Of a stretch of 64,000 bases of DNA, positions 4,229 through 46,487 are shown piece after piece. The notes under the pieces were generated by a model that ran no database searches, was not told the origin of the DNA, and was given only the letters and a program-made list of their open reading frames with translations. The stretch comes from Loigolactobacillus binensis. Lineage in GTDB: Bacteria > Bacillota > Bacilli > Lactobacillales > Lactobacillaceae. Every line of letters starts with the position of its first letter. Position 1 is the stretch's first letter. The DNA is taken from positions 1 through 64,000 of the forward strand of contig NZ_BJDN01000006.1 of the NCBI RefSeq assembly GCF_005405165.1, given 5' to 3'. The translations under genes and the position numbers were made by a program.

Positions 4229-4294
4229 ATTTATTGGTCATTTAACGTAATAAAAATATAACTGGTCAGTGGAACATTATTTTCATGCAAGCTC

Positions 4295-5422: not shown

Positions 5423-6028
5423 TTATTTTAAAATGGGAATAGCTTCAGCAAATCTTTGTTCCAAACGTTCTATAACTTTATTAATAGATTCAATATCTTC
5501 GTCAGTTAATGCTTCAGGAACTTCAAAAGCCCTCAACATCACTAAAGACTTATATGCCTTATATATTTTTTGTAATTCAATATTTGGTAAACCATTATTA
5601 CTAATCATCGAATCCCAAATCATGGTTGAAATTCCTTGCTTAATTGCATTAAAGGTTGTCGGTGTATCATCTCTCTTCAACCTTGGTTTTTTCACACGAA
5701 TTGCCTCTAAATTATCTTCTAACTCCATTAACAATAATCCACAATTATCTTTATTTTTTCTTTTCTCAAGTTCTTCATTTTCTTGCTGTTCTTTACGTAG
5801 AGATAGAGTCGCCTTATTCGCTTGCGACTCAGAAATAAAATAAGCCATAACTGCGGAAATTATCGCCGATAGAGCCGCACTAATTGCATCGACAATTGCA
5901 ATAATTCTATTTTCACTACCCAAATTACTTAAAACTAAATGTGTGATAATCCAGATACCAAAACAGAATAATAATGTCAAAAATATTGTTTGGATAATTG
6001 GATATTCTTTAAAAGTTTTCAAACGCAT
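5423..6028 (-). CDS. two-TM membrane protein with coiled coil, unknown
   Basis: The 201-residue protein has two hydrophobic spans (about 12-34, IFLTLLFCFGIWIITHLVL; about 43-66, IVDAISAALSAIISAVMAYF). A Glu/Lys/Arg-rich coiled-coil stretch (about 68-110) and a helical C-terminal domain follow. The layout, short membrane anchor then cytosolic helices, resembles membrane effectors of phage-exclusion systems, but no family match is recognised. It is the last gene of a three-gene minus-strand unit, overlapping the previous gene by 20 bases. Clearly AT-rich compared with the structural genes, suggesting separate acquisition. Confidence 0.72.
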   Translation of the reverse strand: MRLKTFKEYPIIQTIFLTLLFCFGIWIITHLVLSNLGSENRIIAIVDAISAALSAIISAVMAYFISESQANKATLSLRKEQQENEELEKRKNKDNCGLLLMELEDNLEAIRVKKPRLKRDDTPTTFNAIKQGISTMIWDSMISNNGLPNIELQKIYKAYKSLVMLRAFEVPEALTDEDIESINKVIERLEQRFAEAIPILK

Positions 6029-6527
6029 TTCCGTCTACTCCTCTACCACGATCATCTTCTTTCAATGTTGCATTCGTAAAAGGTAGTAAAACATCTCTTT
6101 CATCAGGATTTTTGTTACCGATAACTTCATCAATAACTGGTTGAACTAGTAAATCAAAAAAAGTCTCAATATTATCAGAACTAATTGTAACTTCCTCTAA
6201 AGTATTTTCATTAAAAAAAGTTTTTTGTTTAATTATGTCTTCTTTATTTGATGCGGTAATTAAGATTTCCCAAGTTACTGGGTCGCGATATTGGTAACAT
6301 GGCTTGAAAATACCTGCTCCCGTTGCATCATCAAAAACTTGAAGTGCTGCTCCCCAAGGAACCTGAACCGATGCCGCAAATTGTAACGGATTAATAAAGT
6401 GAGTGGCTCTTGGAATTAAAGTAACGAGCCATTGATCCAGATTTTCAACCACACTTGCTAGGGATTTACCAGAAGTTCCCTGTTTCAAATATTTATCTTG
6501 TAAGGTTTTCAAAGTCTTGAAGTACAC
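6009..6527 (-). CDS. hypothetical protein, middle gene of accessory trio
   Basis: The 172-residue soluble-looking protein belongs to no recognised family. Segments such as PWGAALQVFDDATGAGIFKP and DPVTWEILITAS suggest an alpha/beta fold. The start lies inside the preceding gene (35-base overlap) and the end inside the next (20 bases), so the three are translationally coupled and probably act together. AT-rich. Confidence 0.7.
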   Translation of the reverse strand: MYFKTLKTLQDKYLKQGTSGKSLASVVENLDQWLVTLIPRATHFINPLQFAASVQVPWGAALQVFDDATGAGIFKPCYQYRDPVTWEILITASNKEDIIKQKTFFNENTLEEVTISSDNIETFFDLLVQPVIDEVIGNKNPDERDVLLPFTNATLKEDDRGRGVDGNAFENF

Positions 6528-7740
6528 TTTGTAGAACCTCCTCTCGAACAGATTTCATAATAAAGTGAATAGTTAGCAAATTGGGAAATGCTGTATATCT
6601 CGTGCTATGAATCAAATTGTACTTTCTCCAAGATACATCTAATTCTTGTAAAGACTCTGCATGAAAAATAGTATCTTTTGTATCAAAATACGTTGTTGAA
6701 CTTTCCATCGGTGGTCTTGCAGTACCTATAGTGTACATTCCACCACCATTTTTACCATTTATAGTACTACCATCTAAATCATGATAATTGAACGAAACAA
6801 CACTTCCAGGCATATTTGACACATGATTCTTGAAGTTATCGAAATCATTAATAATGAGCAACCTAACAAAAGTATTAAAAATTCTATCTCTCACATAAAT
6901 TCTATCTTTTTTAGATTCTAGACCTAATCGTTCTAACATATTTAAATAGAAAGTATCAACCAATGATGTTTTATTCTCAGTTTCAGCATCCATAACAAGC
7001 TTGACATATGTTTGTTCATTTGTTGCAGTTAATTTCTTATATAATTCAAAAATCTGTTTAGAATTATCTTCATTATGAAATGTAATATTGTATTCGTGAA
7101 GAAGATAGGCACTAATTATCTTAAAACTTATCATTGGTGCTACTGGCTTGCTCGGTTCATATAAATTATTAGCCATTGAATGAAAACGAAAAATCGCTTT
7201 TCTTGTTTTAAGATTCAGATTCACCCAAGTAAAATCAACTCTCAAATTATCTGCATCCGCTATATCCCTACTAGCAAAACGTCTCCCAAACATGATGTCT
7301 AACTGGTCTACTCTATCATTTTCTTCATTCAATGTGAACTTGCGATAAACAATTTGAAATCGATCGTTAGGAATAAAATTAAAGAAATTATTGACATTTA
7401 AATCCTGAATATTCTCTACGTCCTTACTATGTGTAAAAATATCCAAGCTAGAATTTAAAGTAGAATTTGTCAAATCTAGGTAGCTTAGACCAACTAAATG
7501 ATTACATTTCTCCTTATATTGCAAAAGAAAACTTTCATTAAATTTTTTTATAGCAATTTGTTGACGCTCCACTGTTGTCTCAGCATTCAGACCAATAATA
7601 AAATTTGCTAGTCCATCAGTTTTTGACTTTACCTTCCCATAATTCTGGTCCACTAACAGTTCATTCAACATATCAGTATTACAATAAGCCGATAGCGCAT
7701 TTAACAAATAATGACTTTGCTCATATTGCTGAAGAGGCAC
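6493..7740 (-). CDS. hypothetical protein, first gene of accessory trio
   Basis: The 415-residue protein has no recognised domain, signal peptide or membrane span. Conspicuous segments are FKIISAYLLHEYNITFHNED (about 205-224) and a Gly/Asn loop NGKNGGGMYTIGTARPP (about 330). The GTG at 7740 is preferred because AGGTGG lies just upstream; a GTG at 7749 is also possible. It heads the overlapping trio placed between the lysis genes and attL, where temperate phages often carry genes not needed for growth. AT-rich (about one-third GC by eye). Confidence 0.7.
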   Translation of the reverse strand: MPLQQYEQSHYLLNALSAYCNTDMLNELLVDQNYGKVKSKTDGLANFIIGLNAETTVERQQIAIKKFNESFLLQYKEKCNHLVGLSYLDLTNSTLNSSLDIFTHSKDVENIQDLNVNNFFNFIPNDRFQIVYRKFTLNEENDRVDQLDIMFGRRFASRDIADADNLRVDFTWVNLNLKTRKAIFRFHSMANNLYEPSKPVAPMISFKIISAYLLHEYNITFHNEDNSKQIFELYKKLTATNEQTYVKLVMDAETENKTSLVDTFYLNMLERLGLESKKDRIYVRDRIFNTFVRLLIINDFDNFKNHVSNMPGSVVSFNYHDLDGSTINGKNGGGMYTIGTARPPMESSTTYFDTKDTIFHAESLQELDVSWRKYNLIHSTRYTAFPNLLTIHFIMKSVREEVLQSVLQDFENLTR

Positions 7741-7833
7741 TTTCCCCACCTGCCTAATAGAAATTCATAATAGATTCATTATAAAATAATATGGGCAAAA
7801 CAACCATACTATTTTTCAATATATTATGTATCC

Positions 7834-7860
7834 AGCCCATTTTGAAATACAAAATGGGCT
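7834..7860. terminator. hairpin between lysis genes and accessory trio
   Basis: A perfect 11-bp inverted repeat (AGCCCATTTTG / CAAAATGGGCT) with a 5-base loop lies 24 bases past the endolysin stop. There is no long T tract on the minus strand, so termination of late transcripts here may be partial. The flanking 7741-7833 holds AT-rich sequence, probably the promoter of the trio. Confidence 0.6.
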
Positions 7861-7883
7861 AGTTTTAACTTAGGCATCAATTC

Positions 7884-8810
7884 CTATTTAAACGTGCCCC
7901 AAACGTTATTAGCAGTACCGGACGGGTGTGTTGGTAAATATAAATCTCTACCATTATATCCAATATAGTGTACCCAGACATAGCCGTCATAGTTGACATA
8001 GCTGTCATAATTGATCGACGCACCAGCCGGCAGCATACCCGCACGTGACGCATCTACACCAGCTAAATAGCGAACTTGAATCGGCTGATCACCGTTGACG
8101 AAAGTCCCACTTTCAGCCGTAAACCCGTTAGCCATTTTATTAGAGCTAGCCGCTGGCGCCGAAGTTGCTGGCTTAGACGGATTGTTGATCACGTTGCTGG
8201 AACCACCAAGGCTAGAAACACCTGTCACGACGTCATGACCTAATGTTGCTTGGGATACGCCCCACTTAGCCATATAAGCTACTGGATCAGAATGGTCACC
8301 CCAAATATTTTGACTAACAAAATTATGAGTAATAATGCCGCCATTAATATCATTAAATCGTAACGGAATATTAAACTGAACTGCTGAGTCATGTGCTAGG
8401 GCAACGTAAGCTGCGTAATCCTGCTTAAACTGTGCATAGCTATTGGCATGACCTAACTCAATTTGAACTGGGCTATTACTGTTGGCATAGTCACCGGCGC
8501 CCCAAGCAACATAACCAGGCTCACCGATTTTAAACACTTGGCCCCCGTCACCGACTGTATATTGAGTATATGTGTACGAAACATTCCAGTTATTGTCAAA
8601 GTAATTCGCATTCGCGGCAGCGCCAGACTCAGTCCCAACATCATGCAATACAATATACTTGTTATTCGCGATCTGTGACGATCCTTGCGAAGCGCCAAAG
8701 GCATACGTATTATTTACCGTATAGGCAGACGCTGGTGCTACTGGTGCCAACAAAAAAACAGCCGCGGCGGCGACTGTTAAACGGGTTGCTAATTTAGTTT
8801 TATTTTTCAA
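7884..8810 (-). CDS. endolysin: secreted N-acetylmuramoyl-L-alanine amidase
   Basis: This lytic enzyme cuts the amide bond between MurNAc and the stem peptide. The 308-residue protein has a Sec signal (basic KNKTKLATR, hydrophobic core, AxA-type end PASA, about 1-29). An amidase_2/PGRP-type domain (about 45-175) contains Zn-ligand-type His in VLHDVG and ITHN. A linker and a C-terminal SH3_5-like cell-wall-binding domain (about 230-305) follow. The TTG at 8810 is chosen because AGGAGG lies 8 bases before it. A Sec signal implies export without needing holin holes, as in some Oenococcus and Lactobacillus phage lysins, with the holin then triggering activity. Confidence 0.9.
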   Translation of the reverse strand: MKNKTKLATRLTVAAAAVFLLAPVAPASAYTVNNTYAFGASQGSSQIANNKYIVLHDVGTESGAAANANYFDNNWNVSYTYTQYTVGDGGQVFKIGEPGYVAWGAGDYANSNSPVQIELGHANSYAQFKQDYAAYVALAHDSAVQFNIPLRFNDINGGIITHNFVSQNIWGDHSDPVAYMAKWGVSQATLGHDVVTGVSSLGGSSNVINNPSKPATSAPAASSNKMANGFTAESGTFVNGDQPIQVRYLAGVDASRAGMLPAGASINYDSYVNYDGYVWVHYIGYNGRDLYLPTHPSGTANNVWGTFK

Positions 8811-39215: not shown

Positions 39216-39246
39216 ATAATGATAAACTATCACTGAGGTGAAATTA

Positions 39247-39642
39247 ATGGCTATATTAAGTGAGCGCCTTACTCAATTACGTGAGGAAAAGGGTTGGTCA
39301 AAAACCTTAGTTGCACAAAAATTAGGACTTAAAAATATGGCAACTTATGCCAACTATGAATATGGCACCCGTGAGCCGGATATCGATACATTGAAGCGAA
39401 TCGCTTCACTTTATGATGTCACAATAGACTATCTACTCGGACAAAATCAAACGCCTAAATGGGCTGACCAACGTGATACCCTGGACTTAAAGAAGTTTAT
39501 AGATGAGGATGCTGGGATGACTTATGACGGTGATGACCTGACGAAAGAAGAACTTGAACAATTAAATGTCGCTTTCACACAGATATTCTGGAAACGGCGT
39601 AAGGCTGAAAGAAAGATTGCACGCGATGGAAAAGAAGAATAA
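39247..39642 (+). CDS. phage repressor, CI/ImmR-like XRE protein
   Basis: The 131-residue protein's HTH (about 4-62; RLTQLREEKGWSKTLVAQKL, then YANYEYGTREPDIDTLKRIA) is followed by a short acidic-to-basic helical C-terminus. There is no LexA-type self-cleavage domain, which fits control by the ImmA-like peptidase encoded next. ATG 39247 has GAGGTG 6 bases upstream. Keeps the lytic promoter off in the lysogen, inferred from the operator layout. Confidence 0.9.
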   Translation: MAILSERLTQLREEKGWSKTLVAQKLGLKNMATYANYEYGTREPDIDTLKRIASLYDVTIDYLLGQNQTPKWADQRDTLDLKKFIDEDAGMTYDGDDLTKEELEQLNVAFTQIFWKRRKAERKIARDGKEE

Positions 39643-39666: not shown

Positions 39667-40101
39667 ATGAGGGAAGATTTAGAGACGGTTATCGAATACA
39701 TGGGTCATCGCTATAAGACCTTCGATCCGTTTATCATTGCTGAAAAACTAAATATTCAGGTTGACTGGCGCCCATTTGGTGCACATCCTGCTGGGCAAAC
39801 GAGACACTACCCTACAATAGGTGGTGGCAAAGCACCGATGATATTATTAAATGAGCGTATTCGCAATACACCTGAACGTTATTTTGCTATGGCTCACGAA
39901 TTAGGACATGTTTTAGAGCACGAAGGATTAGATGGCTATTACGACTTTGATCGCCGAAATCGAAGTAAAGTTGAAGTTGAGGCTGATTCTTTTGCCGCAC
40001 ACCTACTGACGAATTTTTTTGTTGAGGAATACGATCGGGCTGCTGACAATTATCAAGAATTAGTTTGGACATACGGCTTTCCTAAACTCAGTGACTATTA
40101 A
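39667..40101 (+). CDS. ImmA/IrrE-family metallopeptidase
   Basis: The 144-residue zinc peptidase has HExxH in MAHELGHVLEHEG (about 77-89) and the third ligand region VEVEADSFAAHLL (about 102-114). In ICEBs1 and related elements ImmA cleaves the ImmR repressor on induction. Here it follows the repressor by 24 bases and probably inactivates it. Confidence 0.9.
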   Translation: MREDLETVIEYMGHRYKTFDPFIIAEKLNIQVDWRPFGAHPAGQTRHYPTIGGGKAPMILLNERIRNTPERYFAMAHELGHVLEHEGLDGYYDFDRRNRSKVEVEADSFAAHLLTNFFVEEYDRAADNYQELVWTYGFPKLSDY

Positions 40102-40203
40102 ATCAATACTAGTTGTATACACTTTATAGCATGGGACTATCTTAATTATTATGTCCAAATACTGATCGACACTAAAAGCTGATTAAGTTTGGGGGAATTA
40201 CAA

Positions 40204-40785
40204 ATGAATAAGCACCACAAACTCATTGCACAGGTTAGTGTACTTAGTTCACTTATGTTAGGCGGCGTTATCGCTCCACTACCTACTTCGATGCACAATA
40301 ACGACCAAGTTACTGTGCAAGCAGCAAAGAAAAAATACTATTTCAAAAAGGATACAGCAAAATTAAGGGACTTGAAAATTAAAATTGATAAAGTTCGTTT
40401 TCTTAGCCCTTCTGAGGATGGTACTACAGACAAAAATATGGTTGTATTTGAATATAGTATTACAAACCTATCAAATAAAGACATTGATGCAGTTACTGGA
40501 TGGCAGGCCGTATTTAACGCTTATCAAAAAAATAAGGATACTGAAGGTAAGCTTGAAGTGGGTTCTACGCCGTCTGAGTATCAAGATGCGATAGACGTTC
40601 AAACTCAAAAAATCAACAAAAATGGAACAGTTAAATGTGTTACAGCCTATGAATTAGCTGATACAAAAACTCCAGTCGTTTTAAAAGCTACCAAAGGATT
40701 TGAAGGTAAAAAGTTAGGGCAAAAAACATACAAGATTGGTACTTTTGAACAAGCTAAAGACTATAGTACTGAGTCTGCAAATTAA
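40204..40785 (+). CDS. secreted protein, DUF5067-like
   Basis: The 193-residue protein has a signal peptide (basic NKHHK, hydrophobic VSVLSSLMLGGVIAPL, cleavage near VQA/AKK). The mature domain (about 40-190) has KIDKVRFLSPSED and MVVFEYSITNLSNKDIDA, the pattern of DUF5067/Ig-like extracellular domains. No lipobox. ATG 40204 follows GGGGGAA. A lysogenic-conversion candidate at the usual place beside the repressor. Confidence 0.75.
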   Translation: MNKHHKLIAQVSVLSSLMLGGVIAPLPTSMHNNDQVTVQAAKKKYYFKKDTAKLRDLKIKIDKVRFLSPSEDGTTDKNMVVFEYSITNLSNKDIDAVTGWQAVFNAYQKNKDTEGKLEVGSTPSEYQDAIDVQTQKINKNGTVKCVTAYELADTKTPVVLKATKGFEGKKLGQKTYKIGTFEQAKDYSTESAN

Positions 40786-40810
40786 CACTTAGGCTATTTG
40801 GGAGGATTTT

Positions 40811-41128
40811 ATGGAAGTAAAGTATGGGCGTTCATCTTTTTTTGATGGTGGGTTATTACAATTTATCGGCTGGTCAATTCTTGGTATTTTAATTACATTC
40901 TTCACACTTGGAATTTGTTATCCTTGGGCTCTAACAATGTTGTATGGCTGGAAAATAAATCATACTGTAATCGATGGTAAGCGAATGAGTTTTCATGGTT
41001 CAGCCATTGGGTTATTTGGTAATTGGATCAAATGGCTGCTACTCACTATAGTTACACTTGGTATCTACAGCTTTTGGGTCAACGTTAAACTTGAAGATTG
41101 GAAAGCTAAAAATACATCTTTTGCATAA
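40811..41128 (+). CDS. membrane protein, DUF898-like
   Basis: The 105-residue protein has two hydrophobic spans (about 15-42 and 70-92) separated by YGWKINHTVIDGKRMSFHGS, typical of DUF898/YjgN-like proteins. GGAGG site upstream. Likely in one transcript with the preceding secreted protein; may act in the envelope of the lysogen. Confidence 0.75.
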   Translation: MEVKYGRSSFFDGGLLQFIGWSILGILITFFTLGICYPWALTMLYGWKINHTVIDGKRMSFHGSAIGLFGNWIKWLLLTIVTLGIYSFWVNVKLEDWKAKNTSFA

Positions 41129-41137
41129 GTTATTGTA

Positions 41138-41177
41138 TCCCCTGCCGGTGCACCGTGGTTCGATTCCATGGAGGGGA
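41138..41177 (+). other. tRNA-like acceptor/T-arm minihelix
   Basis: Forty bases fold as a 6-bp outer stem (TCCCCT/AGGGGA), a 9-base stretch, and a 6-bp stem with the 7-base loop TTCGATT. The inner hairpin matches a tRNA T arm (GG-TTCGATT-CC) and the outer stem an acceptor. D and anticodon arms are missing and no CCA follows, so it is not a normal tRNA. It lies between the DUF898 gene and the ParA-like gene. Confidence 0.5.
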
Positions 41178-41217
41178 ATTTAAATTTTAATTTCATTTAA
41201 ACTTTGGAGGGTATAAA

Positions 41218-42150
41218 ATGAATAAAGAATCTGATACAGTAAATAAACCAAAAGTAATTTCTTTTATCAACATGAAAGGCGGCGTTGGGAAGACGACTTT
41301 ATGTATTAATACCGCTGATTACTTATCTAACAAAGGAAATAAAGTTATTATACTTGACTTGGATCCGCAATTTAATGCAACTCAAGCTATGTTGCTACAA
41401 AAAACACGTTTATCAAAGTACGATGAAGAAAAAAACAATATTGATGATGAATCACAAGAAGAAAACGATATTATTCGTGCAGAAGCAGATTCTGCTAAAT
41501 ATTATGAGAAATTATCTGATGACGAAAAAACGGTCATGCAAATTTTCGCGCCTACAAATGCTAATAAAGATACTAAAAAGGATATCATTATTTCATACTC
41601 AGAAAATTTAGATTTTGTGCCTGGTGATTTAGAGTTATCAGCCGTTATTGCTGGTGACACAGCAGGTAAAGTAGGTGCAATTCAAGATTATATCGATAAT
41701 TATCTTGAAAGTAATTATGATTTTGTATTAATTGATTGCCCCCCTACATGGTCTATTCTAACCCACTCTAGCCTGTACGCTTCTAACTATTATGTTATTC
41801 CAAGTAAAATTGATTTCTACTCTTCGATAGGTATAAATTCTCTACAAAATAAAATTAAAGAGAAGCTGCTAGATGATAGCTTATATAAAGCAACAGGAAA
41901 GAAATTAAAAAATTTAGGTATCATCTTTTCAATGACAACAGGGTTAAAAGCTGAAGCAGCCATCAGAGACATCGTTGAACGTGATTTTTCAAATAAAATA
42001 GAAATTTTTGCCGGTGAAATTCCATTAATAAAATCTGCTTCATCTGCTTTTATACTCTATTCAGAAGTTGAAGATAATGGATTATACTCAAATTTAACTA
42101 ATGGATTCGAAAAATTTGCGACTCAGTTTATGGAAAGGATCTCACAATGA
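41218..42150 (+). CDS. ParA/Soj-like ATPase, first gene of accessory cassette
   Basis: The 310-residue protein has a deviant Walker A FINMKGGVGKTT (about 17-28), Walker A' LDLDPQFNATQ (about 45) and Walker B DFVLIDCPPTW. An acidic insertion of about 60 residues (about 65-125) separates the first motifs from the rest. Partition ATPases are not needed by an integrated phage. With two overlapping partner genes lacking a ParB, a regulatory or defence role is more likely. GGAGGG lies upstream. AT-rich. Confidence 0.85.
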   Translation: MNKESDTVNKPKVISFINMKGGVGKTTLCINTADYLSNKGNKVIILDLDPQFNATQAMLLQKTRLSKYDEEKNNIDDESQEENDIIRAEADSAKYYEKLSDDEKTVMQIFAPTNANKDTKKDIIISYSENLDFVPGDLELSAVIAGDTAGKVGAIQDYIDNYLESNYDFVLIDCPPTWSILTHSSLYASNYYVIPSKIDFYSSIGINSLQNKIKEKLLDDSLYKATGKKLKNLGIIFSMTTGLKAEAAIRDIVERDFSNKIEIFAGEIPLIKSASSAFILYSEVEDNGLYSNLTNGFEKFATQFMERISQ

Positions 42151-42560
42151 CAGAAAATAGTAACTATGTGAAGAAAATAATAAAGCAAGTTGATATTTTA
42201 CAAAGTAATAAACTAGATTCGGAGGAATCTATCAACTATTTTACAGGTTTTATGTATTCATTAATATTGGATAAGACTGTATTCAAACGAAATGATGAAC
42301 TACCTGATTTCATTTTCAATTTTTTCCTAAAACCATTTGGATCTATGCAATATAAGGATTATGTATATAAAAGTAGAACGCTTCTAGGTGCAAGAGTATG
42401 CAGACATATAATTGATGATTTTAATTACTCTGATACTGTTAAATTATCGAAAATAATCTTAAATTATTTAGAAAAAAAGTATGCCTTGGGACAAGATGAG
42501 AATGCTCATAAAAAGTTAAATAGTATAGCAAACGAATTATCAGGATGGCTAAATCAATGA
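42147..42560 (+). CDS. hypothetical protein, second gene of ParA cassette
   Basis: The 137-residue all-helical-looking protein (MTENSNYVKKIIKQVDILQS, FTGFMYSLILDKTVF) has no recognised family and no ParB-like HTH. The start overlaps the ATPase stop (ATGA), so the two are translated together. Confidence 0.75.
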   Translation: MTENSNYVKKIIKQVDILQSNKLDSEESINYFTGFMYSLILDKTVFKRNDELPDFIFNFFLKPFGSMQYKDYVYKSRTLLGARVCRHIIDDFNYSDTVKLSKIILNYLEKKYALGQDENAHKKLNSIANELSGWLNQ

Positions 42561-43258
42561 ATCAAGATCAAAGTCGTACTAGAATCGCAAATCAAGAATT
42601 TGAACTAATAGATGATTTACTCCCAAAAACGCTGGCAAGGTTAGATGAAATTGGAAATAAAAAGCTTTATAAATCTTATAAGTATGTTTATTTCATTCAT
42701 TATTTTACAAATAGGTTTGAATTGCGTAAATTCACTAATGACGAATACTTTAAAGTTTCCATTTCATTTTGTAACGAAGCCTACATATCCATGATGTTAA
42801 ATCAAAAAAACGCTTCATTACTACTATTAAGATCTTCAATCGAAAACTTTATTAAGTTTATGCTGAATTATTATGGACTGGACATTGACCCTACAAGGTT
42901 TAAAACTAACAAAGGTACTCTGCAAAAATCAGGTCTTCTAACAACTGATTTAAATTCAAAACTTGATCGATTACTTTCATTTTATAATGATTTTTCCGGT
43001 TTATCACATTCAGCAACAAATATTAATACAGATATTATTGAGTTCCTAAATTTAGCAACAACATTAAGACCAACGAACTTTAACAAGAATTACTGTTCAT
43101 TTACAAAAATAATGAAAATCTATATTTATTTTATTATCAGTATCTGTAGCGAGTCCTTAATAAAATGGGATACTGCCGATTTGAAAAATAGTTTATCGAT
43201 TATTTTCTCGGACTATGAAACAATCCAAATAATTAGTGAAATCAAAGATAACGAATAG
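42557..43258 (+). CDS. hypothetical protein, third gene of ParA cassette, possibly HEPN-like
   Basis: The 233-residue helical protein has a central part NASLLLLRSSIENFIKFMLN and FYNDFSGLSHSATN, an Arg-containing helix followed by an (S)xxxH helix. This resembles HEPN-type or DUF5677-like domains found in abortive-infection proteins; the assignment is tentative. ATG 42557 overlaps the previous stop (ATGA), with AGGA upstream; ATG 42545 is possible. Very AT-rich. A hairpin terminator overlaps its stop. Confidence 0.7.
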   Translation: MNQDQSRTRIANQEFELIDDLLPKTLARLDEIGNKKLYKSYKYVYFIHYFTNRFELRKFTNDEYFKVSISFCNEAYISMMLNQKNASLLLLRSSIENFIKFMLNYYGLDIDPTRFKTNKGTLQKSGLLTTDLNSKLDRLLSFYNDFSGLSHSATNINTDIIEFLNLATTLRPTNFNKNYCSFTKIMKIYIYFIISICSESLIKWDTADLKNSLSIIFSDYETIQIISEIKDNE

Positions 43259-43285
43259 CAGCCCTTCAAGGGCTTTTCGTTATCC
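43247..43285 (+). terminator. nested hairpin terminator of ParA cassette
   Basis: GATAACGAA...TTCGTTATC encloses the inner stem AGCCCTT/AAGGGCT followed by TTTTCG. The outer arm starts in the last codons of the third cassette gene. It separates the cassette from the integrase. Confidence 0.75.
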
Positions 43286-43356: not shown

Positions 43357-44523
43357 ATGGCAGAAGGTTATATTCGCCACCGTGGCGACAGTTATTATTA
43401 TTCGTTTGAAGCGGCTGTAATTGGTAGCAAACGTAAGCGTATCGAGCGTTTTGGCGGTCATACAGAGAAGGAAGCTAAAAGAGCCTTACGTAAGGCTATC
43501 GCCGAGTATGAGCGTGCTGGAATCGAATACGAGCTATCAAACCTGAGTATTTCTGATTTTTTTGATTACTGGTTCAAAAAATATGTAGAACGTAATTTGA
43601 AGTATAATACTCAGCATAATTACAAGAATATTATTGATAAGTATATCAAGCCACACCTAGGTAATTATAAGCTTCGCACCATTGGCCCTGCTGTACTGCA
43701 AAAATTCATTGATGATGTTTCTGAAATCGTTGACGATCGAACTCACCGAACTTTAGCTAAACACACCGTTGAAATTATTTTTACGGTTCTTAAGGGTGCA
43801 TTTCGTAAGGCCGTTTATCCATATCAGTTTATTCGGGACAACCCGATGAACTATGTTGATATGCCTAAATACAATATAAAGCCGCATAAATCACGTGAAG
43901 ATTTGAAAATCATCACCTTGCAACAGTACGATCAGATTCTACAATTCACACCGCCTGCCGATTCATTTCATATACCACTCCTGATCGGTTTTAATACTGG
44001 AATGCGCCGCGGCGAAGTTTGTGGCTTACAGTGGGATATGGTCGATTTAGACGCTGCAACAATCAAAGTTGAACGTAATATGATCCAACTTACTGGACAC
44101 GACTACGAACTGGCATCCCCGAAAACAGCTGCAAGCTATCGCACGATCCTTATTGGTAGCTCACTTTTGAATGAATTACGTACCTGGCACAAACAGCAAA
44201 TGGAAAATCGCTTACGTTATGGCAGCTATTACTTTGAATCAAATTTTGTTTGCACTCACGAAAATGGTAAGCCTGTAACCCCCAACTCGATCAAATACAA
44301 GTGTGGTCATATCTCTAAAGAATTAGGCTTCCCGTTTAATTACCATTCCCTGAGACATACCCATGCCACGCTATTATTAGAAAATGGTGCTAAGCCTAAA
44401 GAAATTCAGGAGCGACTCGGTCACTCACGGATCTCGACTACATTGGATACCTACTCGCATGTCACCCAAAAGATGAAGAAAAACACAGTGGATATTCTGG
44501 AAAGAATACAAAAAAACAGCTAG
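43357..44523 (+). CDS. int: tyrosine integrase
   Basis: The 388-residue site-specific recombinase has an N-terminal arm-binding domain (about 1-50; GYIRHRGDSYYYSFEAAVIG), a SAM-like core-binding domain (about 60-165) and the catalytic domain (about 180-385). Active-site residues are Arg in GFNTGMRRGE, His/Arg in YHSLRHTHATLL and Tyr in STTLDTYSHV. AGGAGG lies upstream. It sits beside the right attachment core and recombines attP with the 3' end of lepA. Its last codons form part of a minus-strand terminator. Confidence 0.95.
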   Translation: MAEGYIRHRGDSYYYSFEAAVIGSKRKRIERFGGHTEKEAKRALRKAIAEYERAGIEYELSNLSISDFFDYWFKKYVERNLKYNTQHNYKNIIDKYIKPHLGNYKLRTIGPAVLQKFIDDVSEIVDDRTHRTLAKHTVEIIFTVLKGAFRKAVYPYQFIRDNPMNYVDMPKYNIKPHKSREDLKIITLQQYDQILQFTPPADSFHIPLLIGFNTGMRRGEVCGLQWDMVDLDAATIKVERNMIQLTGHDYELASPKTAASYRTILIGSSLLNELRTWHKQQMENRLRYGSYYFESNFVCTHENGKPVTPNSIKYKCGHISKELGFPFNYHSLRHTHATLLLENGAKPKEIQERLGHSRISTTLDTYSHVTQKMKKNTVDILERIQKNS

Positions 44524-44615: not shown

Positions 44616-44648
44616 CTATTTTGTGGAACATTATTTTCATGTAAGTCC

Positions 44649-46487
44649 CTATTTCTTGTGACTTTCTTCCTCGTCGGTGCGTAAAACAGCCATGAAGGCT
44701 TCCTGCGGCACTTCCACGGAGCCGATCTGTTTCATTCGTTTCTTGCCCCGCTTTTGCTTCTCAAGTAATTTACGTTTACGGGAGATATCACCACCATAAC
44801 ATTTAGCTAAAACGTTCTTTCGTAATGCTTTAATGTTAGTTCGCGCAATAATTTTATTCCCAATAGCTGCCTGAATAGGTACCTCAAATTGCTGCCGGGG
44901 GATAATTTTTTGCAACTTCGCGACGATTTCGCGACCACGATCAAAAGCAAAGTCTTGATGAACAATACTGCTTAAAGCATCGACTGATTCACCATTAAGT
45001 AAAATATCCATTTTAACTAATTTACTTTCACGGTAACCTTCAATTTGGTAATCAAGTGAGGCATAACCCTTAGTGCTGGATTTTAATTTATCGAAAAAGT
45101 CATAAATAATTTCTGATAACGGCAAATGATAAATCACGTTAACCCGGTTGTTATCTAGGTATTCCATCGTGTCAAAGTCGCCCCGCTTATTCTGCGACAA
45201 TTCCATGACCGCACCAACATAATCATTAGGCACCATGATCGAAGCATGGACAAAAGGTTCTTCAATCGAACGAATTGAAGCCGGATCAGGCATCTCCGAG
45301 GGATTAGCAACCACTTTTTGGCTACCATCAGTTAAGTTAATATGATAAATAACCGACGGCGCCGTTGTGATCAAATCCAGATCAAATTCGCGCTCCAAAC
45401 GCTCTTGGATCACATCCATGTGCAATAGGCCTAAGAATCCACAACGAAAACCAAAGCCTAATGCTTCTGATGTTTCTGGCTCAAAGGTTAAAGCAGCATC
45501 ATTTAACCGTAATTTTTCTAGTGATTCACGTAATTCATTATATTTTGAGGAATCAACTGGATATAAGCCACAATAAACCATTGGCGTCATTTTTCGATAG
45601 CCTTGAATAGCATTCGTAGCCGGATTATTGGCTAAGGTAACTGTATCACCGACCTCCGTGTCCTGAATCGTTTTAATGCTAGCTGTGATGTAGCCTACGT
45701 CACCAGCCATCAGCATTTCTCGTTGAACCGCCTTAGGTGACATTACGCCGACTTCAGTCACTTCAAAAGTTTTACCGCTTTGCATTAATTTGATCGTATC
45801 GCCTGGTTTAACAACCCCTTCAAAAACCCGTGTGTTCAGAACGACCCCACGGTAACTATCATAAACCGAATCAAAGATCAAGGCCCGTAACGGTGCCGTC
45901 AAATCACCTGTTGGCGCGGGAATATCCGTGACGATTCGTTCCAGGATCTCTTCAATCCCAACACCTTGTTTAGCACTTGCCAGCACAGCGTCCTGGGCCC
46001 CAATGCCAATATCATCCTCAATTTCTGCTTTCACGCGGTCCGGATCGGCCGCCGGTAGATCAATTTTGTTGATCACCGGAATAATCTCCAAATCATTATC
46101 AATCGCCAAATAGACGTTAGCTAACGTTTGTGCTTCCACACCTTGAGCAGCATCAACCACTAAAACGGCCCCTTCACAAGCTGCCAGACTACGCGAAACT
46201 TCATAAGAAAAATCAACATGGCCTGGAGTGTCGATCAAATGAAAAGTGTAGGTTTGGCCGTTTTTAGCTTGATAGGCCAATTCAACTGCATTCAACTTAA
46301 TTGTGATTCCCCGTTCACGTTCAAGATCCATTGTATCCAGGATCTGGGCCTCCATATCGCGTTTAGCAACAGTGTGCGTCAATTCTAAAATTCGATCGGC
46401 TAAAGTTGATTTACCATGATCAATATGGGCAACAATCGAAAAGTTGCGAATATGTTTTTGACGTTCTTGCATCGCTTTAATATCCAT
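44649..46487 (-). CDS. lepA: elongation factor 4 (LepA) GTPase
   Basis: The 612-residue ribosome-associated GTPase remodels or back-translocates stalled ribosomes. G1 [10 protein letters not shown]2 region [10 protein letters not shown]3 DTPGHVDF, G4 NKIDLP; EF4-specific C-terminal domain ending EESHKK. The last 17 codons come from the phage (synonymous to the displaced host end at 4295), so the protein is unchanged by integration. The ATG at 46487 is preferred; an in-frame GTG lies at 46514. Integration replaces its downstream terminator. Confidence 0.95.
44683..44704. repeat. attachment core, right copy (attR), inside lepA
   Basis: This 22-base copy of 4329-4350 lies within the lepA coding sequence (codons for AFMAVL). 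Everything from here to the stop is phage-derived. Confidence 0.9.

Follow-up and report, generated by a model that had tools for sequence, protein, structure and literature searches.

The subject of this analysis is a cassette of three genes in a 64,000-nt stretch of Loigolactobacillus binensis DNA (contig NZ_BJDN01000006.1, positions 1 to 64,000; the whole stretch is called here the window), coding for a ParA-type ATPase (P1), a small all-helical protein (P2) and an all-helical protein resembling HEPN domains (P3). The coordinates of the cassette and of the features around it are collected in Table 1. A first-pass annotation, made from the letters of the sequence, had described the cassette as a possible new phage-encoded defence or exclusion system lying between the lysogeny genes and the integrase gene (int) of an integrated phage. 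The position is correct, and the 19-bp repeats of Table 1, together with a second pair of direct repeats (18 bp, at 44683 and 4329) having an equal offset, mark a probable integrated prophage, some 40.4 kb long, with the 3′ end of lepA as its insertion site.

Table 1. Features of the cassette and of the prophage that carries it, in window coordinates
Feature	Position	Strand	Size and basis
P1, ParA/Soj-type ATPase	41218-42150	+	310 aa; open reading frame with Pfam and PDB sequence matches
P2, all-helical protein	42147-42560	+	137 aa; phrog_6264 match, alignment and model
P3, all-helical HEPN-like protein	42545-43258	+	237 aa; alternative start 42557; model and structural matches
Nested hairpin terminator closing the cassette	43247-43284	+	arms 43247-43259 and 43272-43284; terminator scan 43260-43274
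Leader upstream of P1	41129-41217	+	89 nt
Tyrosine integrase, next gene 3′ of the cassette	43357-44523	+	98 bp from the cassette; Phage_integrase 2.9e-24
Helix-turn-helix repressor-like protein, lysogeny gene	39238-39642	+	HTH_3 7.8e-14
ImmA/IrrE-type peptidase, lysogeny gene	39667-40101	+	Peptidase_M78 3.3e-11
Probable right attachment repeat, 3′ end of lepA	44623-44641		19 bp
Probable left attachment repeat	4269-4287		19 bp; copy of 44623-44641

The ATGA overlaps by which the genes were said to be joined hold for P1 and P2, whose reading frames have an ATGA in common (42147-42150), and for P2 and P3 only if P3 starts at 42557 (ATGA at 42557-42560), the first P3 ATG, at 42545, giving a 16-nt overlap. 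We counted gene overlaps, with starts taken mechanically, in 73 cassettes from the window, named records and viral contigs, a redundant set corresponding to 48 groups at 85%: P1 and P2 overlapped in 61 of the 73 and P2 and P3 in 56. The AT-richness that had been pointed out is evident, with a GC content of 29.3% versus 40.9% in positions 8000-41000 and 43.3% on the host side, the lowest of any 2-kb stretch of the window. The nested terminator is likewise there, strongly folded (z -6.1) and overlapping the P3 stop codon. The claim that the cassette has its own leader did not hold up: the gap upstream of P1 shows unremarkable folding (z -0.69) and promoter-like sites between 40700 and 43400 are at background level (17 found, 15.3 ± 4.1 expected).

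Judged by its sequence, P1 is an ordinary ParA/Soj ATPase. It has the deviant Walker A motif (KGGVGKTT, with lysines K20 and K25) typical of the ParA of ParABS systems, the motifs DxDPQFNATQ and LIDCPP, a Pfam match to AAA_31 (9.4e-37) and PDB sequence matches to the segregation protein 1wcv (4.6e-17) and to Soj (6iub, 3.7e-15). The acidic insert noticed by the first-pass annotation spans approximately residues 62-120; when the copies were aligned together, it was present in those of the window and of Lactobacillus phage LF1 and absent from two E. coli copies and from the Fusobacterium copy. Existing labels of such ATPases are 'ParA-like partition protein' (phrog_164), 'chromosome partitioning ATPase' (LF1) and 'partitioning protein' (Javan1). 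Two copies of the gene are interrupted by insertion sequences, with P2 and P3 intact in both: in phage JNU_P1 (L003, 3990-5990) an IS256 transposase gene replaces the first part of ParA, and in an E. coli prophage remnant (L008, 9001-10912) ParA is split by IS903B.

The Salmonella phages SE1, ST160 and ST-32 were matched in one and the same ParA search. In SE1 (L091, 4998-6071) a ParA-like gene lies two genes 3′ of cI, as in P22-like phages, and neither P2 nor P3 was detected beside it; the ParA of P22-like phages belongs to a different ParA subfamily, has a rex-like position and is annotated as a partition or regulatory protein. Two Epulopiscium loci (L092 and L093) each have several ParA genes of the P1 subfamily close together, with a P2-like gene and no P3 recognised.

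P2 was modelled, in agreement with its earlier description as a small helical protein, as an all-helical bundle (predicted local distance difference test, pLDDT, 85.7). It matches phrog_6264 (5.4e-15), to which no function is assigned, and nothing above the cut-off in Pfam, DUF5659 (0.0021) lying below it. Its motif consists of N49, Y72 and S76-R77, conserved among 115 sequences in 109 (Asn), 101 (Tyr), 104 (Ser) and 108 (Arg) cases, and its C-terminal tail ends in LSGWLNQ. Assignment to a known fold was rejected, as Foldseek and VIA-align gave weak helical matches alone (best Z 6.9). We also rejected a reading by eye of the longer P2 relatives described below as SAP/HeH-like nucleic-acid-binding proteins, the sole Pfam support for it being a sub-threshold HeH match (0.0065) in a doubtful protein (L161).

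P3 likely has a HEPN fold, as suggested by its model, which is all-helical with a pLDDT of 90.7. In Foldseek, HEPN domains took ranks 1, 2 and 4 with a probability of 0.99 and E-values of 0.23-0.33, no match falling below 0.001. In VIA-align the first five ranks were all HEPN, namely 2hsb (Z 10.4, 123 residues at 3.2 Å), the HEPN domain of sacsin (10.2), 1o3u (9.9), 1ufb (9.7) and 1wol (9.3); unrelated helical chains trailed them at Z 9.2, and VIA-align warns that values below approximately 13 are ambiguous for helical proteins. Among 118 distinct P3 sequences, with residues numbered from the start at 42545, R96 is conserved in 116, E100 in 114, Y147 in 110 and H155 in 117. The conserved R96 lies in an earlier long helix, with a median spacing of 58 residues between this Arg and the His, and H155 is close to the end of a long helix further on. 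R96 and E100 in one helix and H155 in a later one would fit a relocated HEPN active site.

Sequence comparisons assigned P3 to no family. The P3 of the window had no Pfam match at E 1; 49 members searched at E 0.1 matched 27 scattered weak families, with no HEPN or Abi family among the 25 listed; and the P3 profile had no match among PDB sequences at E 1. HEPN_MAE_28990 (PF18737) had no match in the window's own genome, an uninformative result given that the control was also without match. DUF5677 (PF18928) was considered and rejected: its RxxxE ... Y ... H pattern is alike by eye, but the profile comparison was not significant, hhalign giving a probability of 1.7% (reversed control 0.1%) with a small DUF5677 alignment of 7 and then 5 sequences, two having been dropped. 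The LF1 relative of P3 (L002, 6380-7081) is labelled 'carboxypeptidase D-like protein', which looks misleading, as does the label of the P1 of the same phage. On the whole, the structure prediction and profile search that had been recommended for the three proteins gave a ParA for P1, a probable HEPN-like fold for P3 and no clear match for P2.

We then considered how far the three genes occur together. A tblastn search of a phage collection matched LF1 with P2 and P3 and JNU_P1 with P2 only, the gene order being that of the window. A weak match in a plasmid collection led to Fusobacterium and to an E. coli prophage in which ParA is followed by two further proteins, ordered alike. The Fusobacterium copy adjoins what look like chromosomal genes, and no integrase was detected there; its record (NZ_CP084075.1, Fusobacterium vincentii, 2.1 Mb) is filed as a plasmid and is probably a misfiled chromosome. 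Scans of viral contigs with single P3 and P2 sequences gave no match. With a ParA alignment, instead, recognisable P2 and P3 were found downstream in 77 of the 80 kept viral loci, a redundant set; in two of the other three the ParA frame runs off the contig, and the third is a 49-residue match approximately 350 bp from a contig end.

A scan of genome contigs gave 158 related loci, of which the best 80 were kept, many of these in Bacillota and Pseudomonadota. The full trio was present in 46 of the 80, from several phyla and including records under the titles Mucilaginibacter, Chryseobacterium, Salinibacter and Desulfobacteraceae. Twenty-four of the other 34 loci formed, when aligned, a second branch whose P2 is longer (L154 and L155 among them look unrelated), and the alignment of this long P2 matched the P2 profile with an hhalign probability of 68 (E 4.9e-5). 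A third gene follows in six second-branch loci of Burkholderiales/Xanthomonadales type and in L165, and the alignment of these 7 sequences matched the P3 profile (probability 97, E 8.6e-11). Other loci, including metagenome-assembled genomes titled Micrarchaeota and Thorarchaeota, have ParA and P2 only or are cut by contig ends. By eye, the pairs of ParA and long P2 in L144, L157, L159, L164 and L166 adjoin TIR-, Vsr-, HsdR-, OLD-type ATPase- and cytosine methylase-like genes.

Across 84 loci, counted without L003, L022, L076 and rows within 15% P1 distance, the distances of P1, P2 and P3 were correlated (r 0.71, 0.81 and 0.61), the largest null value in 999 permutations being 0.19; because of this correlation we consider the three genes as inherited together. 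By these alignments, the cassette belongs to a large conserved three-gene family and is not a chance neighbourhood. A search of 398 genomes of the class with the P2 profile gave matches in 8, one of them the window's own, and all 8 matches were in full trios. The P3 profile matched 7 of 398 genomes of the phylum, again including the window's; L212 and L213 also have the full trio, and L215 has ParA and, at the position of P2, a 187-aa gene not matching P2. A P3 search of 301 genomes of the family found the window's own genome only. The DNA of the E. coli cassette, whose proteins are WP_000211299, WP_001039225 and WP_000941575, was at least partly matched in 68 of 5426 complete genomes, with at least 80% of it in 16.

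The place beside int had been called a frequent one for cargo, and related prophages do hold recognised defence genes in the same slot. We read the int-side slot in 10 Lactobacillaceae phages and prophages (L187-L194, L196 and L197) whose integrase is 52-61% identical to the window's, leaving out L195 (integrase 71% identical, too short) and one weaker match. One slot holds AbiD (L191; Abi_2 2e-29, PADLOC AbiD 3.5e-38), one a PDC-M24B protein (5.7e-58), one a PemK-like protein (2.9e-10, with a weak PDC-M13C match, 0.0057), one the full cassette (L194), one P2 and P3 (L196) and five other cargo. The scan behind the first three assignments covered ten proteins from seven of the other slots, a part of their genes and with L193 not included, and the other seven proteins scanned had no PADLOC match. 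In L196, which is Latilactobacillus phage TMW 1.1447 P1, P2 and P3 lie behind a sequence-gapped gene having no match to the ParA profile; because the DNA of this phage came from virions of an induced lysate, at least the P2-P3 part travels in an active phage.

In E. coli, the integrase adjoining the cassette occurs in 409 of the 5426 genomes, and the full cassette in 16. We picked 12 such prophages from 40 listed rows of 410 records, strain HN68 being chosen with the knowledge that it held the cassette, and read the slot directly after int. It held the cassette in HN68, an AAA ATPase with RloB in WL1277, an AAA ATPase with a DNA adenine methylase in JJ1887 and 410, an STAS-like gene set in UTI89 and approximately three further hypothetical gene sets in the other seven strains. 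RloB and pairs of AAA ATPase and methylase go with defence, and the E. coli slot is a second, independent exchangeable slot alternating with defence-type genes. In these ymfK/yfdPQR-type prophages the slot (for instance in L199, L202 and L207, at about 5700-8450) has unnamed cargos of one or two genes, approximately seven kinds in 12 genomes, and looks promising for further defence systems. The three genes are a conserved, co-inherited and mostly overlapping unit of temperate phages and prophages, found in exchangeable int-side cargo slots in the two lineages examined.

On balance, we lean towards considering the cassette as a prophage-borne conflict module, most likely anti-phage and of the abortive-infection type, a reading suggested by its gene content and location. 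In such a module P3 would be an RNase of HEPN type in which the arginine of the active site has been relocated, from helix 3 to helix 2 (R96), beside the acidic E100, H155 keeping the position of the HEPN histidine at the end of helix 3. ParA would act as an ATP-dependent DNA-binding switch, with P2 as its adaptor, and together they would keep P3 idle in the lysogen. An infection that disturbs the state of the DNA or of the nucleoid, or that delivers a trigger, would release or activate P3, which would then cut RNA and halt growth before the rival phage is completed. We offer more tentatively, as a possibility that we hold somewhat doubtful, the specific proposal of an undescribed and widespread anti-phage system in which ParA works through a small adaptor as a sensor of DNA state, whether cellular or phage, responding for instance to a lost host nucleoid or to the replication of a rival genome, and turns on a HEPN-like RNase in which the R-E-H active site is rearranged.

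The nearest precedent is in a 2013 survey of HEPN domains (Anantharaman et al., PMC3710099), whose retrieved passages describe a dyad, among the less common ones, that pairs a HEPN protein of the MAE_18760 family with a ParA/Soj ATPase and is predicted to be a toxin-antitoxin system. As in our case, the two proteins share an operon, as ParA and P3 do with P2 between them in 77 of the 80 viral loci (the HEPN assignment of P3 being itself only likely), and the prediction is that of an RNase toxin controlled by an ATPase; because of this prediction, we consider the cassette as a three-gene variant of the predicted ParA/Soj-HEPN kind. The differences are the presence of P2 between ParA and P3 in the full loci examined, the Rx4-6H motif, which a table of the survey gives for the dyad (a comparison by description and not by sequence) and which P3 lacks, and the location as prophage cargo, the retrieved passages naming neither a prophage slot nor a P2 for the dyad (PMC3710099). 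The word 'new' in the first-pass annotation therefore needs qualification by this earlier dyad; it stands in so far as P2 and P3 have no match above the cut-off in Pfam or PADLOC. Precisely, with PADLOC 2.0.0 at E 1, P2 and P3 of the window, of LF1, of JNU_P1 and of one E. coli copy had no match, and only P1 had matches, of ATPase type. A literature search of open-licence articles found no paper describing the ParA-P2-P3 cassette, which is weak as evidence of absence; in the retrieved part of PMC9519451, the listed matches to 'para' were words such as 'parameters'.

Other known systems share single traits with the cassette. Tha, a HEPN anti-phage protein encoded by S. aureus prophages, is likewise an effector carried by a temperate phage, and by analogy it shows that a HEPN effector design in a prophage works against phages; it is activated by tail proteins and has the motif RNSIMH (Rx4H), and neither ParA nor P2 is mentioned in the retrieved text (PMC11087260). 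AbiD, AbiF and AbiV are abortive-infection effectors with a HEPN fold, according to the passages retrieved from the survey (PMC3710099), and AbiD occupies the same slot in a related prophage (L191), whereas the Pfam families listed for the P3 members include no Abi or HEPN model. HepT of the HEPN-MNT (HepT-MntA) systems is among the structural matches of P3, but its motif differs and the partner in the cassette is a ParA ATPase and not a nucleotidyltransferase.

Several observations weigh against the anti-phage reading. The Foldseek E-values of P3 are not significant, and middling Z values come easily with helical folds. The HEPN-like pattern that had been reported for the third protein was supported as regards the fold, HEPN being at the top in both structural searches, and not as regards the canonical Rx4-6H motif, which is absent from the P3 of the window (no R at H-5 to H-7); an R at that spacing occurs in 13 of 117 aligned members. 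Without this motif, to judge from the sequence, P3 may have no RNase activity. The many distant pairs of ParA and P2 with no recognisable P3 suggest that the ParA-P2 core may have another job, and beside three weak P3-profile matches (L214, L216 and L217) neither P1 nor P2 was seen in the short locus, the L217 match sitting in a 507-residue frame and looking spurious. The two copies in which ParA is disrupted and P2-P3 intact make it less likely that ParA is an indispensable antitoxin, although polar effects could account for them.

The neighbours of the cassette give no support either. For the 46 full genome loci, PADLOC (E 1e-10) was run on 145 of the 246 eligible proteins located up to 3 kb from the cassette and on all 143 eligible proteins at 6.5-10 kb. 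A few defence-type proteins were present in both sets, which do not allow a per-protein count, as several models may match one protein. The near set matched 101 families, the 25 listed having one member each and including PsyrT/PsyrA, a type II methylase, DpdF, PDC-S01, PDC-S03 and PDC-M24B. The far set matched 25 families, with four members for mad3, two for mad8 and one each for NsnB, PD-T4-7, PDC-M55A, HEC, AriA/GajA/AbiLi-type models and others. With PHROGs, integrase families were at the top among the 25 listed of 188 for the near set, two of them with 9 of the 145 proteins each.

The main rival to defence is that the cassette is an addiction or toxin-antitoxin module, stabilising the prophage or its excised circle with no direct role against other phages, and that P3 is an RNase toxin neutralised by ParA, P2 or both; we regard this as rather unlikely. 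The same two partner types, ParA/Soj and HEPN, were predicted as a toxin-antitoxin system in the passages cited above (PMC3710099), the genes overlap, and structures of HEPN-MNT toxin-antitoxin systems are among the VIA-align matches of P3 (6m6w and 7bxo, both at Z 7.9). An exchangeable slot common to AbiD and RloB, however, fits defence better, and with ParA as antitoxin and P3 expressed, the interrupted copies of L008 and JNU_P1 should kill. Unless P3 was silenced by the same insertions, these copies count against a role of ParA as the only antitoxin.

A second alternative is that the cassette partitions the phage during a plasmid-like or excised stage, P2 serving as a small ParB non-homologous to those known. 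P1 is by sequence an ordinary ParA, pairs of ParA and P2 occur without P3, circularised integrative elements can use ParA, and one E. coli copy is recorded as a circular plasmid of 44.6 kb. We consider this role improbable, more so than addiction. The phage is probably integrated, as the attachment repeats at lepA indicate, and such a system leaves no place for P3. Just as had been claimed, no ParB was found: P2 and P3 match no ParB, ribbon-helix-helix or helix-turn-helix model in Pfam or NCBIfam, the fold of P2 having no clear match. Nor did the window or three relatives show a repeat array beside parA. In the window, the 481 bp upstream have scattered two-copy short direct repeats and the 131 bp downstream no direct repeat; LF1 and L010 are like the window, L010 having also AT-rich inverted pairs, and the E. 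coli copy has none. In 72,556 plasmid records, two P2 queries matched only the circular E. coli record and the 2.1-Mb Fusobacterium record, and a P3 query matched none. As chromosomes carry this int and this cassette too, we read the circular E. coli record as a prophage, and none of the plasmid records matched by P2 was judged a genuine plasmid. By the tests made, the cassette is not a plasmid partition locus, in line with the first-pass view that an integrated phage needs no partition, and it differs from ParABS/Soj systems, with which it shares the ATPase.

Superinfection exclusion by positioning, in which ParA and P2 would place P3 at the nucleoid or membrane and so block entry or early events with no RNA cleavage, seems to us very improbable: ParA/MinD-type ATPases do position cargo and P3 lacks Rx4-6H, but its near-invariant R, E and H suggest chemistry. 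Least probable of all is a regulator of lysogeny, integration or excision, suggested by int adjoining the cassette in the window and in many relatives (a tyrosine integrase is detectable within the fetched flank in 35 of the 73 cassettes), but disfavoured by the varying position relative to int (upstream of it in the Lactobacillus phages, downstream in E. coli), by related phages having a similar int and no cassette, as the E. coli counts given above also show, and by the Fusobacterium copy.

Some features of the region around the cassette were also recorded. By eye, positions 41137-41185 of the leader resemble a tRNA T-arm (cgtgg-ttcgatt-ccatg) with a flanking CCCCT/AGGGG stem and with no D or anticodon arm; ARAGORN called no tRNA in the window, and the genome contains this stretch only once. 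The related phages L194, L196 and L197 have a tRNA with CAU anticodon in the region between lysogeny genes and int, which aligns poorly to the window leader. In the same region of the window, 5′ of the cassette (40189-41128), there are a DUF5067 gene and a small DUF898-like protein, and DUF5067 is also weakly matched in the slot of L197.

If the anti-phage reading is true, the system would span from lactic acid bacteria to E. coli and would be directly testable in E. coli K-12. To our knowledge, no ParA-type ATPase is known as an immune sensor. The label 'partition' is probably wrong for this ParA subfamily, which may affect how phage-plasmids are called.

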